Both the position numbers and the translations under genes were made by a program. This document shows, one piece after another, positions 18,061 through 23,063 of a stretch of DNA of 23,063 bases. The DNA lies in IMG/VR virus record IMGVR_UViG_3300046008_000732, positions 1 to 23,063 of that record; one strand, written 5' to 3'. Source of the DNA: a virus. The first letter of the stretch is position 1; every line of letters starts with the position of its first letter. The notes below the pieces were generated by a model. It worked only from the letters and a program-made list of their open reading frames with translations, was not told the DNA's origin and did no database searches.

Positions 18061-18423
18061 TTATCTCACGATGATGTTTTGGGTTGCAAGGGCGACAATC
18101 GCAGCCGCTTTATTTGGTGCGGTGATGCCTGTTTTAAAAATCAATTTCGCATTCGCCACTTCGGCAAGGCGCGTCAATACAGTGCAAGCGGTGTCTGCCA
18201 AGGTTGCATCGGTGCTATTTCGCAAAATCGCGCTGGCAACTTCGCTGCCGTCAGTTGCCGCATTGTTGTGTAACGTGTATTTGCCTGACGCAGTGATTTT
18301 GCCGAGTACCGTGCCGACGATTAGGTTTTGACCTGAAATCAAAACGCCTTTGTCGAACGACATAGTTTCTTCATCGCTGAGTAAAAACTCTGCGCCATAA
18401 ACGCCTTCGGTTTTGGTAGCCAT
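18061..18423 (-). CDS. Head decoration protein, lambda gpD family (HDPD)
   Basis: 120 residues, about lambda gpD length. The opening YGAEFLLSDEETMSFDKGVL and the section LIVGTVLGKITASGKYTLHN, then VASAILRNSTDA, are characteristic of HDPD decoration proteins, which stabilise the expanded capsid as trimers on the outer surface. Its ATG overlaps the stop of the protease gene (TAATG), and the capsid gene follows after 3 bases. Confidence 0.92.
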   Translation of the reverse strand: MATKTEGVYGAEFLLSDEETMSFDKGVLISGQNLIVGTVLGKITASGKYTLHNNAATDGSEVASAILRNSTDATLADTACTVLTRLAEVANAKLIFKTGITAPNKAAAIVALATQNIIVR

Positions 18424-18785
18424 TAGTTAGAACCTCGTGCGTTCATTTGGGCGTAAATTGCCGACGTATCAAACGCAGGCGTAGTGGGTTTTTCTGCACC
18501 GTCTGTTGCTTGTGCGCCGAATAAATGCGCGGGCAAGTTAGGTTTTTGTTCACCTTTTTGAGCGATTAAATCAGCAGAAATGGTTTTGAATTGTTCCGCG
18601 TTAAAACTCAAATACGGCGCGGCTGTCGCTTCGCTGTATTCACGACCTAACGCCGTGAACAATGTTTTAACTTCAATTTCGCGTGTGGCTTTTTTTGCAG
18701 CTTCTGCGTCGGCTTTAAACTGCACGTTTTCGGTTTCGAGCATTGCAACTTTGTCTTGCAGAGCTTTTGCTTCTTCGGGTGTCAT
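18423..18785 (-). CDS. Probable scaffold protein from an internal start within the protease gene
   Basis: The in-frame ATG at 18785 (MTPEEAKALQDKV) is preceded by CAGGAATCCACC, putting AGGA 7 bases before the ATG. That is a better ribosome binding site than the full-length gene has. Its product (120 aa) would be only the coiled-coil region and C-terminus, the part expected to act as scaffold. Mu gpZ and lambda Nu3 are known to be made from internal starts of their protease genes in the same way. The internal start is inferred from the sequence. Confidence 0.55.
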   Translation of the reverse strand: MTPEEAKALQDKVAMLETENVQFKADAEAAKKATREIEVKTLFTALGREYSEATAAPYLSFNAEQFKTISADLIAQKGEQKPNLPAHLFGAQATDGAEKPTTPAFDTSAIYAQMNARGSN

Positions 18786-19319
18786 GGTGGATTCCTGTGG
18801 TTTTGTGGATTGAGCGTTAAAGACGGTGGCGGAGGTTTTGTCGTCTGCACCCATCGTGACAAACGACACCTCTCTTATGCGGTTGTTTTTCAAAAGCGCG
18901 AGTTCGCCTGTGAACGATTGCCCATTGATGTTGTGGGTTTGTGTGCCGTTTAGGTTTTCAGTCGATGCGGGGAAGATGCCGACCGACAGTTGCCACTTGA
19001 TGCCACGGTCGGCTTTGGCAGCGATGTCTTTAGCAACGGGGTCGATGTCCGCGAATAACCGTCCTGCGATTTCGATTTGTGTGCCAATGGACACGGTCTC
19101 GATTACGCCAATGGGTGAGCCGTGATGATTGAATAGCAGCGGCAGGGGTGTTTCTGCGGTGGTGGTCGATAAATCGAAAGCAACCGCGTTGTACCAAGAA
19201 TGGTCAGTGATTACACCGCCAGCATAAGCAACGCCTGAAAAGGTACGTTCGCCTGTGGTTGTAGGTTTTGAAAGCTGGAAGTCAGCTAAAAAATGGAGGA
19301 TTTGATTTTGTGTTTTCAT
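18423..19319 (-). CDS. Prohead protease (S78/HK97-type) fused to a scaffold-like domain
   Basis: I chose ATG 19319 (298 aa); a GTG at 19337 is in frame but neither start has a strong ribosome binding site. Residues 56-70 (PLPLLFNHHGSPIGV) supply the catalytic histidine (H65 or H66). IKWQLSVGIFPA supplies serine 112, and RIREVSFVTMGAD supplies an acid (E150), the His-Ser-Glu order and spacing of HK97-type prohead proteases. After residue 175 comes a coiled-coil segment (EEAKALQDKVAMLETENVQF) typical of a scaffold. Protease and scaffold are therefore in one gene, as in Mu I/Z or lambda C/Nu3. The product should cut head proteins during maturation. It follows a terminator and starts the capsid-tail operon. 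Confidence 0.88.
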   Translation of the reverse strand: MKTQNQILHFLADFQLSKPTTTGERTFSGVAYAGGVITDHSWYNAVAFDLSTTTAETPLPLLFNHHGSPIGVIETVSIGTQIEIAGRLFADIDPVAKDIAAKADRGIKWQLSVGIFPASTENLNGTQTHNINGQSFTGELALLKNNRIREVSFVTMGADDKTSATVFNAQSTKPQESTMTPEEAKALQDKVAMLETENVQFKADAEAAKKATREIEVKTLFTALGREYSEATAAPYLSFNAEQFKTISADLIAQKGEQKPNLPAHLFGAQATDGAEKPTTPAFDTSAIYAQMNARGSN

Positions 19320-19393
19320 GCGCGTTAGATTGCCCACAACGCACTGGGTTTTCTAATCGCATGGTTTAGTAAAGTACGCGAAAAATAGGCAAC

Positions 19394-19422
19394 AAAAAGC
19401 CCAACAGTTCGTCAGGCTTTTT
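19394..19422 (-). terminator. Intrinsic terminator closing the small-gene cassette
   Basis: A 12-pair hairpin (AAAAAGCC with GGCTTTTT plus a four-pair inner stem containing wobbles, loop of 5) is followed by T-rich sequence on the minus strand. The plus strand also shows a T-run after it, so it could work in both directions. It lies about 20 bases past the stop of the 93-aa gene and before the protease gene, so the protease operon needs its own promoter or read-through. I saw no clear promoter in the 100-base gap. Confidence 0.8.
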
Positions 19423-19443: not shown

Positions 19444-19725
19444 TTATTTACCTGACATAAAAGCGTTGTAGCATTCGTCGCTAACTTCGATTTCGTCTGG
19501 GATAAAGTCGCCAACGTCACGTCCCATCATAAAACGCTGGGGCTGGGCGTTGATGTAATAAGGTTCGCCATCCTCGTTGAATGGCGTGGCATAAACAATC
19601 CAATCGCCCATGCCACCAAGGTAGCAAAATCCCGCATCTTCTTCTTTGATAACGAAGCCTGCATATTTTGGGTGGTTACTTTCGTAAATTCCGCCCATGG
19701 GCGGATGGTTTGATTTTTTGCTCAT
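19444..19725 (-). CDS. Small acidic accessory protein (93 aa), unknown; anti-CRISPR-position gene
   Basis: Not recognised. 93 residues with AAGGAG about 7 bases before ATG. The sequence is rich in Gly, Tyr and acidic residues (15 Asp/Glu against 7 Lys/Arg by my count). Features are MGGIYESNHPKYAGFVI, then AGFCYLGGMGDWIVYATPF and FIPDEIEVSDECYNAF. No membrane segment or signal peptide is visible. It is last in a four-gene cassette between the gpG and protease genes, the site where several Mu-like Pseudomonas phages encode CRISPR inhibitors. Its small size and acidity fit such inhibitors but are weak evidence. Other roles, such as superinfection exclusion, are equally possible. Confidence 0.7.
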   Translation of the reverse strand: MSKKSNHPPMGGIYESNHPKYAGFVIKEEDAGFCYLGGMGDWIVYATPFNEDGEPYYINAQPQRFMMGRDVGDFIPDEIEVSDECYNAFMSGK

Positions 19726-19745
19726 GACTTTGCTCCTTTTGGTTG

Positions 19746-19767
19746 GGCAGCGCGATTCCGCCGTGCC
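19746..19767 (-). promoter_or_regulatory. Imperfect intergenic hairpin before the 93-aa gene
   Basis: GGCA and TGCC outer arms with an inner GCG/CGC stem and two mismatches. It sits between the stop of the 134-aa gene and the AACCAAAAGGAG leader of the next gene, the same position as the two stronger hairpins upstream. No T-tract follows on the minus strand, so it is not a terminator. Confidence 0.35.
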
Positions 19768-19774
19768 GTTTGTT

Positions 19775-20179
19775 TTATTCGGCTATGTCTTGCGCCGCTT
19801 TGGCAGCACACAATGTTGCGATAACCTGCGCCAGCGTTTCGTTTAGGTTCGGCGTGCCTGGGAACTGCTCTTGGTGCAGCCCACTGGTTGCGAGTTCAAA
19901 CAAGATGGCGTTGATAACTTGAGTTAGTGTTTTCGCGCCAAACTCATCGGCAATCTCAACAACCGCCTGTCCAACTTCGCCGAACCCCGTGGCGGCTGCT
20001 TTTATTTCGCCAGCAAAAACTTCGTAGTTTTCGCCAAGTCCCGCAACAACCTTTTTTGCTGCCTCGAAAATTACGTCGTTTGCGCGGTCGGTGTCGATGT
20101 CGCCGTTTTCGTCGAGTGGAAATCCGATTGTTTCCATCAAATCCATTTGTTTTTTGGCTTCTTCATATACTTTTTTCAT
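19775..20179 (-). CDS. Small acidic accessory protein (134 aa), unknown; anti-CRISPR-position gene
   Basis: Not recognised. It is strongly acidic (23 Asp/Glu against 10 Lys/Arg by my count) and should be mostly helical: YEEAKKQMDLMETIGF, then VIFEAAKKVVAGLGENYEVF, GEVGQAVVEIADEF and ETLAQVIATLCAAKAAQ. The ribosome binding site AAAGGAA lies 7 bases before ATG 20179. No signal peptide or membrane segment is visible. It lies third in the cassette, preceded by a GC hairpin and an ACCAAA leader shared with its neighbours. An inhibitor or DNA-mimic type of role would fit the charge, but that is only a guess. Confidence 0.72.
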   Translation of the reverse strand: MKKVYEEAKKQMDLMETIGFPLDENGDIDTDRANDVIFEAAKKVVAGLGENYEVFAGEIKAAATGFGEVGQAVVEIADEFGAKTLTQVINAILFELATSGLHQEQFPGTPNLNETLAQVIATLCAAKAAQDIAE

Positions 20180-20205
20180 GGTCGTTCCTTTGTTTGGTTT
20201 TGGTT

Positions 20206-20231
20206 GGCGGGGGGGCTGTTAATCCCCCGCC
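20206..20231 (-). promoter_or_regulatory. GC-rich hairpin between the 68-aa and 134-aa genes
   Basis: GGCGGGGG pairs perfectly with CCCCCGCC (8 pairs, loop of 10). It begins 10 bases past the stop of the 68-aa gene. On the minus strand it is followed by AACCAAAACC and the next ribosome binding site, not by a T-run, so it is not a normal terminator for these genes. Processing, RNA stability or translational control are possible roles. On the plus strand a T6 run follows, but no plus-strand gene precedes it. Confidence 0.55.
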
Positions 20232-20241
20232 GTTTTTTGGT

Positions 20242-20448
20242 TTAGGCGATGCCCCAGATTACAAAGCGTGGTTTGTTTTGATTGTTGTAATACATCTTGC
20301 CCGTTATCAATCCCGCGAACTTCAAGTCTTCCGCTTGGTTTGCGGTAAGTTTCGATTCGCGTTGTGCTGTTGCGATGTCGTTGGTTTCTTTAAATGCCAA
20401 GATGAGTGATAAGAATTTGCGGTGCGTTGCGTCTGTTAATGTTTTCAT
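20242..20448 (-). CDS. Small protein (68 aa), paralogue of the adjacent 72-aa protein
   Basis: Starts at ATG 20448 after AAAAAGGAAAAGACCA. In the first 50 residues 22 are identical to the 72-aa neighbour without gaps. The shared elements are an L-x-x-AT start, A-x-x-ET, LT-x-x-Q, LK-x-AGL-x-TG, and PRF with GIA at the end. The middle (KLTANQAEDLKFAGLITG) looks like a small helix-turn-helix or winged-helix segment in which an LT-x-x-Q helix precedes LK-x-AGL. If so, it could bind DNA and regulate the cassette, as small HTH regulators do in anti-CRISPR operons. It does not look like any Aca family I can recall. The fold is inference. Confidence 0.75.
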   Translation of the reverse strand: MKTLTDATHRKFLSLILAFKETNDIATAQRESKLTANQAEDLKFAGLITGKMYYNNQNKPRFVIWGIA

Positions 20449-20473
20449 TGGTCTTTTCCTTTTTGGTTAAGTT

Positions 20474-20496
20474 GGCGGGGGCGTTTAAGCCCCGCC
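20474..20496 (-). promoter_or_regulatory. GC-rich hairpin between the 72-aa and 68-aa genes
   Basis: GGCGGGG pairs with CCCCGCC (7 pairs, loop of 9), starting 8 bases past the stop of the 72-aa gene. Its arms and placement match the hairpin at 20206-20231, so gene and hairpin seem to have been duplicated together. No T-run follows on the minus strand. Confidence 0.55.
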
Positions 20497-20504
20497 GTTG
20501 TGGT

Positions 20505-20723
20505 TTAAGCCGCTATGCCTGTGAGTTTAAAAAAGAATCTTGGTTGGCGTGAGCCGATGTCAAACTTCGCTTCGCCAGTTACCAAACCCGCTTGTTTGAG
20601 TTCTTTAAGCTGGCTGAATGTAAGGTTGGTAGCGCGTCTTGCTTTAGCCAAGCAGCCTGTTTCTGTGTGCGCCGCTTTCAATTTTTGAAATTCTGCTTTT
20701 GTTGCTTCGTTTAATGCGTTCAT
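20505..20723 (-). CDS. Small basic protein (72 aa), first gene of the accessory cassette
   Basis: ATG 20723 is chosen over an in-frame ATG at 20789 because it has AAAGGAAAAGACC just upstream and matches the start of its 68-aa paralogue; the extension would be unconserved. The sequence has two helices (ATKAEFQKLKAAHTETG, then LTFSQLKELKQAGLVTG) and a C-terminal aromatic strand (PRFFFKLTGIAA), which could be a winged-helix layout. As the promoter-proximal gene it is a candidate regulator of the cassette. Function unknown. Confidence 0.75.
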   Translation of the reverse strand: MNALNEATKAEFQKLKAAHTETGCLAKARRATNLTFSQLKELKQAGLVTGEAKFDIGSRQPRFFFKLTGIAA

Positions 20724-20841
20724 GGTCTTTTCCTTTGTAGTTCGTTGTTTTAAAAGGCTTTTTCGTGCCGTCGGGACACACATTGCCATTCAATTTACGT
20801 TGTCAGCAAGTTAAGAAAATAAACCAAACCTTTAAAACGCA

Positions 20842-20875
20842 AAAAGCCCCGTAACACAGGGGATACGAGGCTTTT
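20842..20875 (-). terminator. Intrinsic terminator after the gpG-like gene
   Basis: On the minus strand AAAAGCCTCGTA pairs with TACGGGGCTTTT (12 pairs including one T-G), with a 10-base loop, then TTGCGTTTT. It lies 30 bases past the stop of the gpG-like gene and separates the head genes from the small-gene cassette. The 20724-20841 stretch should hold the cassette promoter, but I could not identify convincing -35/-10 boxes. Confidence 0.85.
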
Positions 20876-20905: not shown

Positions 20906-21367
20906 TCAGGGCTGGGATAGGTGCTGTTCAATAATATCAACGATGTCCTCTGCCCAAGCGTCTGGCAACGCCGCCGTTGGCATAAAGGGACGGGCGGGAA
21001 TATCACCCCACAAATTTGGGAATTGCGCCTTTTTACCGCCGAAGTTCATCATTGCGGCTTGCGGGGCGTTTGTACCCACAACAACCGACTGTGCGCCAGC
21101 TTGCACCGTGAACGAGTTTTTTAAAACCCCCGTGTCGCTTAATGGCACACTTGAGCCACCGCGCCGATTCGCAATCGTGACGGGCGATAACGCCTTCCAG
21201 TTGATACCGTCAGGCGATTTGGTATCAACGAAACAAAGACGAATGTTAGATTTTAAACTTTGCCCGATAGAGCGCATCGCGGGTTGCAAATTGGTGACGG
21301 AGTTGCCTAGCTGCTGCAACCTTGCGTGCATCTCAGCGTTGTCGATTTGAACGGTAATGCCGCTCAT
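20906..21367 (-). CDS. Phage virion morphogenesis protein, Mu gpG family
   Basis: 153 residues. MRSIGQSLKSNIRLCFVDTK followed by SPDGINWKALSPVTI, LSDTGVLKNSFTVQAG, VVVGTNAPQAAMMNFGG and IPARPFMPTA are the ordered motifs of the gpG/Phage_tail_S family, which includes P2 gpS. These proteins act in head completion or joining of head and tail. The ATG overlaps the stop of the 136-aa gene (ATGA). Neighbours on the upstream side are the virion ADP-ribosyltransferase and a small protein. Downstream, Mu has the protease gene directly, but here the accessory cassette is inserted. Confidence 0.93.
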   Translation of the reverse strand: MSGITVQIDNAEMHARLQQLGNSVTNLQPAMRSIGQSLKSNIRLCFVDTKSPDGINWKALSPVTIANRRGGSSVPLSDTGVLKNSFTVQAGAQSVVVGTNAPQAAMMNFGGKKAQFPNLWGDIPARPFMPTAALPDAWAEDIVDIIEQHLSQP

Positions 21368-21775: not shown

Positions 21776-23063
21776 TTATACCTCCTTCAATTTAACAATC
21801 TGCCTGTTCTCTTTTTTGTCGAACTCGTTTGATTCGATAACAAATTTGCGCCCGCTTTGAATAAGGATTTCGCTCTCTGTGCCTCCGTATTCTGACAGCA
21901 TACTTATCTCCGAACCTGAGCCGTTTTTCAAGTCAAAGAAAAACACAGTATTTCCATCGTCCCTGAAATGCGATATTCCCGCCATTTTTTTCGTTGTGCT
22001 TGAGAAGTGGTTTTCAGTAACTTGCTCTCCTACGGCGTATTTTTCAAGTTGTTTTGGAGACAGCGACAGGTCGCGCCTGACTACTCCCGAATGAACGTCT
22101 AGTTTCTTCAATGCGCCGTTTAGCACTTTCGTGAATGTGTCGGCGGCTTCTGCCTCTGCATTGGTCACAACGTGTGTTGCCCACTTACCGTTTACGGCGT
22201 TTAGTCTCCCGAATACTTTGTTTTCAGTATATGAATAAACCGCCTTATGCTCAAGCTCCGACAGACCCATCGCTCTCGCGTATTCCACTCCGTTTTTATA
22301 TCTTGGACGAGCGAAATATCCGTCATCGACATCATAAAAGTCGAGTGCGGTCTGGAGTTTTTTCGCATGAACAGAAGTGTAATCGTTATAGTGAAGGTCG
22401 CCGAACTCTTTGCCGACCGTCACCTTGATTTTCGCCATTGATGGCGTTGGATCTGATAATGAAGGGTTGACCCAGTTGCCGTTTTTATCGAAGTTTTCAG
22501 GAAACTTCCACTTCATCGCTTTTATAGTTCCGCTGTCCCACGTTGCGGCGATTGGGTCTTTTTGCGCCCCTTTGAGCAGCGACTTTGGATTTTTATAGCT
22601 TCCTGGGACGACTTCTTTTTTCATGTCGTCCCAATCCCAGCTCTCCTCGGTTACTGAGTCTTTGATTTTGTTGCCCGTCTTCACGATTTTTGTATTCAAC
22701 ACGCCATCTTGGAATTTATATGGGTGCGAGATTTGAAGTTTGTCGAGATTCTCAGGAGTAACATACTTGGTGTCTGGGTCTGTTTGTGGCGTTTCGCTGG
22801 CTAATTTTTTCGTTGGTGTTGAAACTTGTGCTGGTTTCGGTGCAGGAACAGGAGCGGGCTTTTTCAACACTGTTTTTGGTTTTACGCCGCTTCCAGGGGA
22901 CGCTTCTTTTTTCACATCGTCCCAATCCCACGTTTCGCCCGTTTTTGTATCTTTGATTTTGTTGCCCGTTTTTACAAGGTCGGGATTAAACACGCCGTCT
23001 TGAAATTTATACGGGAACGCCTTTTGAACTTTATCAATATGTTCCTTTGACCACGCCTTAATT
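21776..23063 (-). CDS. Phage head-associated protein with C-terminal R-S-E ADP-ribosyltransferase toxin domain (N-terminus outside window)
   Basis: The frame is open to the right edge (428 visible codons), so the true start is outside. Visible residues 4-66 and 100-164 are two copies of a 60-residue repeat, with a third partial copy at 174-205. Between the first two lies a Pro/Ala/Lys linker. From about residue 225 to the end is an ADP-ribosyltransferase fold. LSELEHKAVYSYTENKVFGR is the usual first helix, and R329/R330 in SGVVRRDLSLS is the first catalytic arginine. FSSTTKK at 353-359 is the S-x-T strand, and TESEIL gives E396-x-E398, the ExE pair typical of arginine-specific enzymes. In Mu-like phages the gene just before gpG is the MuF-type minor head gene, and such proteins can carry polymorphic toxin tails injected with DNA. 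A MuF N-terminus is therefore expected but not seen. Confidence 0.85.
   Translation of the reverse strand, partial: IKAWSKEHIDKVQKAFPYKFQDGVFNPDLVKTGNKIKDTKTGETWDWDDVKKEASPGSGVKPKTVLKKPAPVPAPKPAQVSTPTKKLASETPQTDPDTKYVTPENLDKLQISHPYKFQDGVLNTKIVKTGNKIKDSVTEESWDWDDMKKEVVPGSYKNPKSLLKGAQKDPIAATWDSGTIKAMKWKFPENFDKNGNWVNPSLSDPTPSMAKIKVTVGKEFGDLHYNDYTSVHAKKLQTALDFYDVDDGYFARPRYKNGVEYARAMGLSELEHKAVYSYTENKVFGRLNAVNGKWATHVVTNAEAEAADTFTKVLNGALKKLDVHSGVVRRDLSLSPKQLEKYAVGEQVTENHFSSTTKKMAGISHFRDDGNTVFFFDLKNGSGSEISMLSEYGGTESEILIQSGRKFVIESNEFDKKENRQIVKLKEV
21780..21787 (-). promoter_or_regulatory. Perfect Shine-Dalgarno site for the 136-aa gene
   Basis: AAGGAGGT, complementary to the end of bacterial 16S rRNA, lies five bases before ATG 21774 and inside the end of the toxin gene. 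It settles the start and implies strong independent translation of the 136-aa protein compared with its neighbours. Confidence 0.85.
22448..23063 (-). repeat. Two and a half copies of a roughly 60-residue linker repeat in the toxin protein
   Basis: Copy 1 (22859-23063, left-truncated by the window edge) and copy 2 (22571-22762) share PYKFQDGV, VKTGNKIKD, W-DWDD-KKE, PGS and the end K-LLK/K-VLK. Copy 3 (22448-22543) keeps only W-S-IK, FPENFDKNGNWVNPSLSD. The DNA of copies 1 and 2 is also recognisably similar. Their place before a C-terminal toxin domain suggests a spacer or binding module that separates toxin from head. Confidence 0.85.

Follow-up and report, generated by a model that had tools for sequence, protein, structure and literature searches.

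The four small genes between the gpG and protease genes of the virus record studied here (23,063 bases, with genes on the minus strand; this whole stretch is called the window) occupy a region that comparison with related phages shows to be a genuine accessory slot with exchangeable contents, located where two late operons meet and also taking predicted immunity cargo. We lean towards regarding the cassette as a 'moron' block, carried by a Mu-like phage of methanotrophs in a slot reserved for accessory genes. In the proposed mechanism, the slot would lie at the joint of two late units, one running from the lysis genes to gpG and the other from the protease onward, both starting from the same palindromic promoter, which is probably activated by a Mor/C protein. 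Insertions at this joint would interrupt neither late operon, so that genes would be free to come and go. Comparison of the phages shows that the slot is ordered as a start module of terminator and leader, small genes joined by hairpins, a terminator, optional predicted immunity cargo, and a putative promoter resembling PI of phage Mu. The 72-aa and 68-aa proteins, predicted to be winged-helix proteins, would probably autoregulate the block via the leader, as their structure and position suggest, and the acidic 134-aa and 93-aa proteins would most likely act on defence systems of the host or of rival phages, by analogy with the Acr proteins encoded at this position in JBD30-type phages, with CRISPR as one possible target.

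The cassette genes and their products

The cassette consists of genes A (72 aa, 20505..20723), B (68 aa, 20242..20448), C (134 aa, 19775..20179), and E (93 aa, 19444..19725), all on the minus strand; the first-pass annotation had listed four small ORFs of these sizes, and its coordinates proved to be exact. A third A/B paralogue of 71 aa, designated D, is present in relatives L019 and L020. A 94-aa version of A with an extended start was rejected in favour of the ATG at 20723, since the additional residues would be encoded by the conserved leader, which is also found ahead of different genes and in different reading frames. The dN/dS values calculated against relatives (0.23–0.41 for A, 0.10–0.30 for B, 0.18–0.26 for C, and 0.09–0.21 for E) indicate that all four genes are coding and subject to purifying selection.

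As previously proposed, the 134-aa and 93-aa proteins are acidic (pI 4.33 and 4.46, respectively) and the 72-aa and 68-aa proteins, which are basic (pI 10.0 and 9.7), are paralogues with 40% identity. Searches of Pfam, PHROGs, PADLOC, and NCBIfam with A, B, C, and E revealed nothing above noise, so that the candidate effector C and the last gene E, which alignment shows to be the most widespread of the cassette, are orphans. Sequence profile searches against PDB returned no significant match for any cassette protein; the C profile had two weak, non-significant matches to phage structural proteins (E 0.34–0.39). DNA and protein searches of phage records yielded a single match, a Psychrobacter phage protease with 35% identity; C and E have no match in the phage collection searched, and these methanotroph phages have no close relative in this public collection.

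The AlphaFold model of A (pLDDT 81.5) has an H-H-H-b-b topology and aligned mostly with winged-helix DNA-binding domains, LexA-type domains being among the best (Z 5.1–5.5); the top structure matches have Z of 5–6, under the tool's own caution line of 8. Foldseek found no significant match for this model (best E 0.16), and the winged helix is therefore a probable fold and not a proof of function. We consider A and B, as well as D of the relatives, to be probable winged-helix regulators, and the earlier guess that the 72-aa and 68-aa proteins have a regulatory role is plausible on the basis of the model of A. The AlphaFold model of E is unreliable (pLDDT 49). The N-terminus of E is modular, with variable modules added in relatives, and its length across phages is 93, 96, 144, 157, or 241 aa. 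A small Cys-rich motif, CTC..IS...RL...CP.HDGE, occurs in an L032 gene (8106-8402) and, N-terminally, in long E proteins; joined in this way to different proteins, it could possibly be a mobile zinc-binding module.

The narrow distribution of E (2 of 311 host-order genomes) and the absence of matches to C and E in the phage collection could also be explained by neutral orphan genes piling up in a permissive insertion site, with no selected common function. However, all four genes have dN/dS of 0.09–0.41, and the hairpins, the leader, and the gene order of the block are conserved, making such neutral accumulation very improbable.

Borders, leader, and late promoters of the slot

On the left, the slot is bordered by gpG (20906..21367, minus strand; PF05069 1.1e-19, phrog_26 8.6e-30), a tail completion/virion morphogenesis gene and the final gene of the lysis-packaging operon. 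The right border is the head maturation protease (18423..19337, minus strand; phrog_3244 3.2e-31), the first gene of the head operon, followed downstream, according to profile searches, by a lambda-type gpD (PF02924) and the major capsid protein E (PF03864). These profile matches confirm both neighbours named by the first-pass annotation. The gene at 21776-22993 (minus strand) encodes the C-terminal portion of a protein of MuF type, which weakly matches ADP-ribosyltransferases (PF03496 0.006, phrog_832 0.009) and shows the R/FSST/ESE arrangement of residues that is typically seen in ARTs.

Intrinsic terminators with 12-bp stems were identified on the minus strand 3' of gpG (20842..20875, -15.7 kcal/mol, z -3.94) and 3' of E (19394..19422, -14.1 kcal/mol, z -4.92); in neither case did any of 200 shuffles fold equally well, and both terminators are also present in relatives. 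A simple terminator scan of the window gave 11 hits against 6.9 +/- 3.0 expected, which is not above chance, and the case for the terminators is therefore made by folding and conservation. On these grounds, the two bounding terminators proposed earlier can be regarded as real, and their folding supports the view that the cassette is transcriptionally separate from the head genes.

The post-gpG terminator and the following leader of about 118 bp (20724..20841, minus strand) form a conserved start module with a mean column identity of 82% over 12 copies. The same leader heads the block regardless of whether it opens with A, B, E, or a 98-aa gene, and in L019 and L020 a second copy is located upstream of D. 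Its conservation suggests a promoter or operator role; the palindromic stretch AAAAAGCCTTTTAAAAC, located before the RBS, may be the operator, and a promoter scan of the leader detected no canonical sigma-70 promoter. Within the block, G+C hairpins separate A from B (20474..20496, -16.1 kcal/mol, z -3.13; no T run) and B from C (20206..20231, -18.8 kcal/mol, z -3.32), while alignment revealed a degenerate one between C and E (19746..19767), all on the minus strand. The same element, often GGGGC-GAAA-GCCC without a T run, sits between nearly all cassette genes of relatives too; changes in both arms were found in three of seven pairs, which is modest support for the hairpin. No promoter-like sequence was found in these intergenic hairpins.

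Upstream of the protease, the window carries one copy of the block TTACTAAAYYRYGCGATTRG (0 in shuffles), part of an imperfect palindrome and also denoted TTACTAAA; the core of this putative PI-like late promoter, TTACTAAACCATGCGATTAG, is located at 19353..19372 on the minus strand, with a -10-like CAATCT 20 nt downstream. In nine IMG/VR loci, the same palindromic block also stands ahead of the holin (PF16083)/endolysin operon; wherever the contig extends far enough, a gene of a Mor-family activator (PF08765 6.5e-20) comes immediately before the block. The -10-like hexamer lies at a constant distance of 20 nt, being TAATGT or TACTGT at the lysis site and CAATCT at the protease, with two exceptions: the L122 lysis copy is one base off and the L017 protease copy reads CAAGCT. 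Since the same block stands before the lysis genes and the protease, the slot is the seam between two late transcription units. The MuF and gpG homologues precede the protease in this order (MuF of the full-length relative L019, PF04233 5.7e-27), and a Mor/C gene accompanies the paired putative late promoters at the lysis genes and the protease; as judged from sequence, this is the late gene organisation of Mu-like phages, the early region lying outside the record. It resembles Plys and PI of phage Mu, which are activated by C (PMC4461284), in having a Mor/C-family gene followed by a lysis operon, and a second such promoter ahead of the protease. In contrast to Mu, the motif sequence is this phage family's own, activation is suggested by sequence, and PI is immediately preceded by an accessory slot. 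Variable large genes, one encoding 418 aa without a match and another encoding 714 aa with a weak NERD match, occur upstream of the Mor gene and lysis promoter in relatives (L112:740-1996, L109:206-2350), and this region is possibly another accessory site.

The location of the small genes between two late promoters, together with the presence of two or three winged-helix paralogues per phage, which exceeds an autoregulator's needs, could indicate a lysogeny or late-switch module, in which A, B, and D act on the late promoters or the repressor and C and E are co-regulators without a role in defence. However, phages with an empty slot retain both late-promoter blocks, and the small-gene module is therefore not required for late expression; moreover, unrelated immunity cargo enters the same slot. 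We regard such a switch as quite improbable.

Slot contents and their exchange among relatives

The window was compared with about a dozen relatives, nearly all of which derive from a single IMG/VR sample series and two MAGs. The order A-B-C-E of the window is extended to A-B-C-D-E, with a long E, in L019 and L020/L021, and reduced to A-C-E in L023 and L028. In L024, A-C-E is accompanied by RnlB and RnlA genes on the opposite strand, and the same insert is found in L022. The slot of L018 contains B-C-E, a HipA-like kinase, and a 288-aa protein; that of L002 contains C-E and a 466-aa DUF4062 protein, and that of L031, which lies in a bacterial MAG, C-E and an oppositely oriented AAA ATPase pair. 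In L032, likewise from a MAG, B and E occur together with the 98-aa gene and a 211-aa orphan, L027 has E alone, and in L025/L026, L029, and L033 the slot is empty, with gpG abutting the protease. Occupied slots of the relatives thus hold from one to five small genes. Some of the empty-slot relatives share the same head module, their proteases being 77–79% identical to that of the window. Because the contents vary among relatives and the slot is empty in some, the cassette is both dispensable and exchangeable; the possibility raised in the first-pass annotation as evidence against its reading, that the genes are conserved throughout the relatives as a component of the late operon, does not hold.

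Larger cargo lies between the 93-aa gene and the protease in five relatives and comprises RnlA/RnlB, a DUF4062 protein (4e-30), a HipA-like kinase (HipA_2 6e-7), a PARIS/Septu-like AAA ATPase (AAA_21/AAA_15, with PADLOC HEC-02/AriA-like matches), and an orphan. RnlA of L024 has all RnlA domains (PF19034 8e-24, PF15933 1e-24), so that the full domain set of the RnlA/RnlB (RNase LS) toxin–antitoxin is present in this slot; the window carries neither RnlA nor RnlB. All larger cargo enters at one point, between the post-E terminator and the protease promoter, and a right-border sequence is common to three cargos and partly to a fourth. Different predicted defence or toxin–antitoxin systems, assigned by domain, thus occupy one fixed site, as is characteristic of a defence hotspot. 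The hotspots of P2/P4 phages and satellites (PMC9122126, PMC9519451) likewise combine a fixed insertion point in the prophage with rotating defence and toxin–antitoxin cargo; the slot described here differs in its Mu-like backbone, in being at another structural junction, and in the conserved array of small genes ahead of the predicted cargo.

The location of the small genes between structural genes could suggest that they are dispensable virion or head-assembly factors, such as decoration or ejected internal proteins, that vary between phages; the virion decoration gene of Pseudomonas Mu-like phages is also accessory and resides in the next gap, RGP H (PMC4378225), and the two non-significant PDB matches of C mentioned above are to structural proteins. 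On the other hand, relatives with the same head module lack all of these genes, a terminator and a leader belong to the block itself, A and B are predicted DNA-binding proteins, and a gpD is already present in this phage. A virion role is therefore unlikely.

Synonymous divergence of gpG tracks that of the protease across relative pairs (rho 0.83), while the tracking is poor for C (rho 0.45) and B (rho 0.50). In many pairs, the divergence of A, B, or C is far below that of the protease, as for C between L018 and L020 (0.18 versus 0.54, p 1.7e-8) and for B between L018 and L019 (0.09 versus 0.53, p 2.6e-8); these p-values are descriptive, since the Fisher tests assume independent sites and the pairs overlap. 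E tracks the backbone on average. The decoupling of C, A, and B from the protease indicates that cassette genes move singly or as sub-blocks. A model in which the whole block swaps as one was rejected, because E and gpG track the backbone and C, A, and B do not; of the earlier proposal of block-wise exchange, swapping at this point was indeed observed, but the genes also move individually or in sub-blocks.

Recombination may occur at the intergenic hairpins. Conserved stem-loops between shuffled small ORFs are also a feature of the PeSLs described for T4-like phages (Arbiol 2010 and Comeau 2014, as cited in PMC4503421). PeSLs are units of an early promoter and a stem-loop; the hairpin unit described here has no promoter, there is one start module per block, and the scale is far smaller. 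In L044 (6004-8892), a similar gpG is directly followed by a protease that by eye is of Mu type, and by a different capsid module; the seam between G and the protease is therefore an exchange point for head modules too.

Host CRISPR systems and the anti-CRISPR position

The phage is carried by two MAGs of one genus, in which pMMO/AMO is encoded in 15 of 18 genomes, and the host is therefore probably a methanotroph. The type I-C locus of the host MAG G001 is complete and holds 54 spacers, and type I-F and I-E CRISPR were found in other genomes of the genus. In the small sample of about 185 spacers from four host-genus genomes, no match was found to the window or to any relative that has a cassette, and none is self-targeting, the latter being a sign that the first-pass annotation had proposed to look for. 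A type I-F spacer of G006 (L057), two copies of which lie in one host-genus array, aligns to 8863-8894 of L033, an empty-slot relative in a different genome, with 27 of 32 positions matching and the CC flank that would be expected. This phage group therefore meets type I CRISPR in the host genus. Single type I-F-like repeats GCCGAATAGGCAGCTTAGAAA are scattered outside arrays in G006, G007, G012, G015, G016, and other genomes. An RNA anti-CRISPR, that is, a solitary CRISPR repeat carried by the phage, was considered and rejected, as no I-F, I-C, or I-E repeat is present in the window or relatives.

The window gpG is 35% identical to that of JBD30 (E 9e-20), and the JBD30 record also has two small genes between G and its protease, which bears out the earlier claim that the cassette occupies the equivalent position. 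We take these two genes to be AcrIF1 and Aca1. The protease of the window has no recognisable homology to that of JBD30 (E 0.04), and the right flank is therefore a different head module.

The slot can be compared with the anti-CRISPR region known as RGP G in Mu-like phages of Pseudomonas, such as JBD30, D3112, and MP29 (PMC4378225). Both lie between a homologous gpG and the protease and hold a variable number of short ORFs. However, the two regions share no proteins, the protease and head module here is unrelated to that of JBD30, the predicted winged-helix genes A and B come first, and the slot of this phage family also takes RnlAB, DUF4062, HipA-like, and AAA cargo.

One reading of this position is that C and/or E are anti-CRISPR proteins directed against type I-F, I-C, or I-E systems of the host genus, with A and B as Aca-type autoregulators. 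It would be consistent with the identical position of the JBD30 acr locus, the small acidic orphans partnered by predicted winged-helix proteins, the abundance of type I CRISPR in the host genus, and the I-F spacer targeting a related phage. However, no Acr or Aca match was found, as the first-pass annotation had also reported: this holds for Pfam, PHROGs, NCBIfam, and PADLOC, which do not contain all Acr families, and for direct comparison of A, B, C, and E with the proteins at the acr/aca position of JBD30. In addition, no self-targeting was seen among the approximately 185 spacers, the regulators are first in the operon, while the second small gene of JBD30 (aca1) follows acr, and non-CRISPR immunity cargo is accommodated in the same slot. 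The steady purifying selection on C and E, as opposed to the rapid turnover often seen in Acrs, also counts against the role in defence modulation favoured above for these two proteins. The full anti-CRISPR reading is on the unlikely side, and inhibition of CRISPR by C or E in itself is likewise rather unlikely. Inhibition of some defence system by one of these proteins, by contrast, is a substantial possibility, although short of probable.

With the cassette viewed as a moron block, one could further speculate that C and E are founders of new counter-defence families of methanotroph phages under a new winged-helix Aca-like family, and that the Plys/PI joint is a standing cargo bay for anti-defence and defence genes, hence the anti-CRISPR position of Mu-like phages; we hold this extension only tentatively and would not expect it to be borne out in full. 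The location of anti-CRISPR genes between G and the protease becomes a testable structural rule, namely a slot between two probably co-activated late operons, in which insertions would leave late expression intact. A distant Mu-like family appears to have immunity systems at the same spot as the anti-CRISPR genes of JBD30-type phages, and reading the G–protease gaps of Mu-like prophages could be a direct route to defence and counter-defence genes.

Downstream of the tail genes, the window also carries, on the minus strand, genes for an FRG-domain protein (3-944; PADLOC PDC-S15 match, 1.3e-69) and a WYL/WCX regulator (1031-1921), which represent a second defence-like cargo site in this phage.
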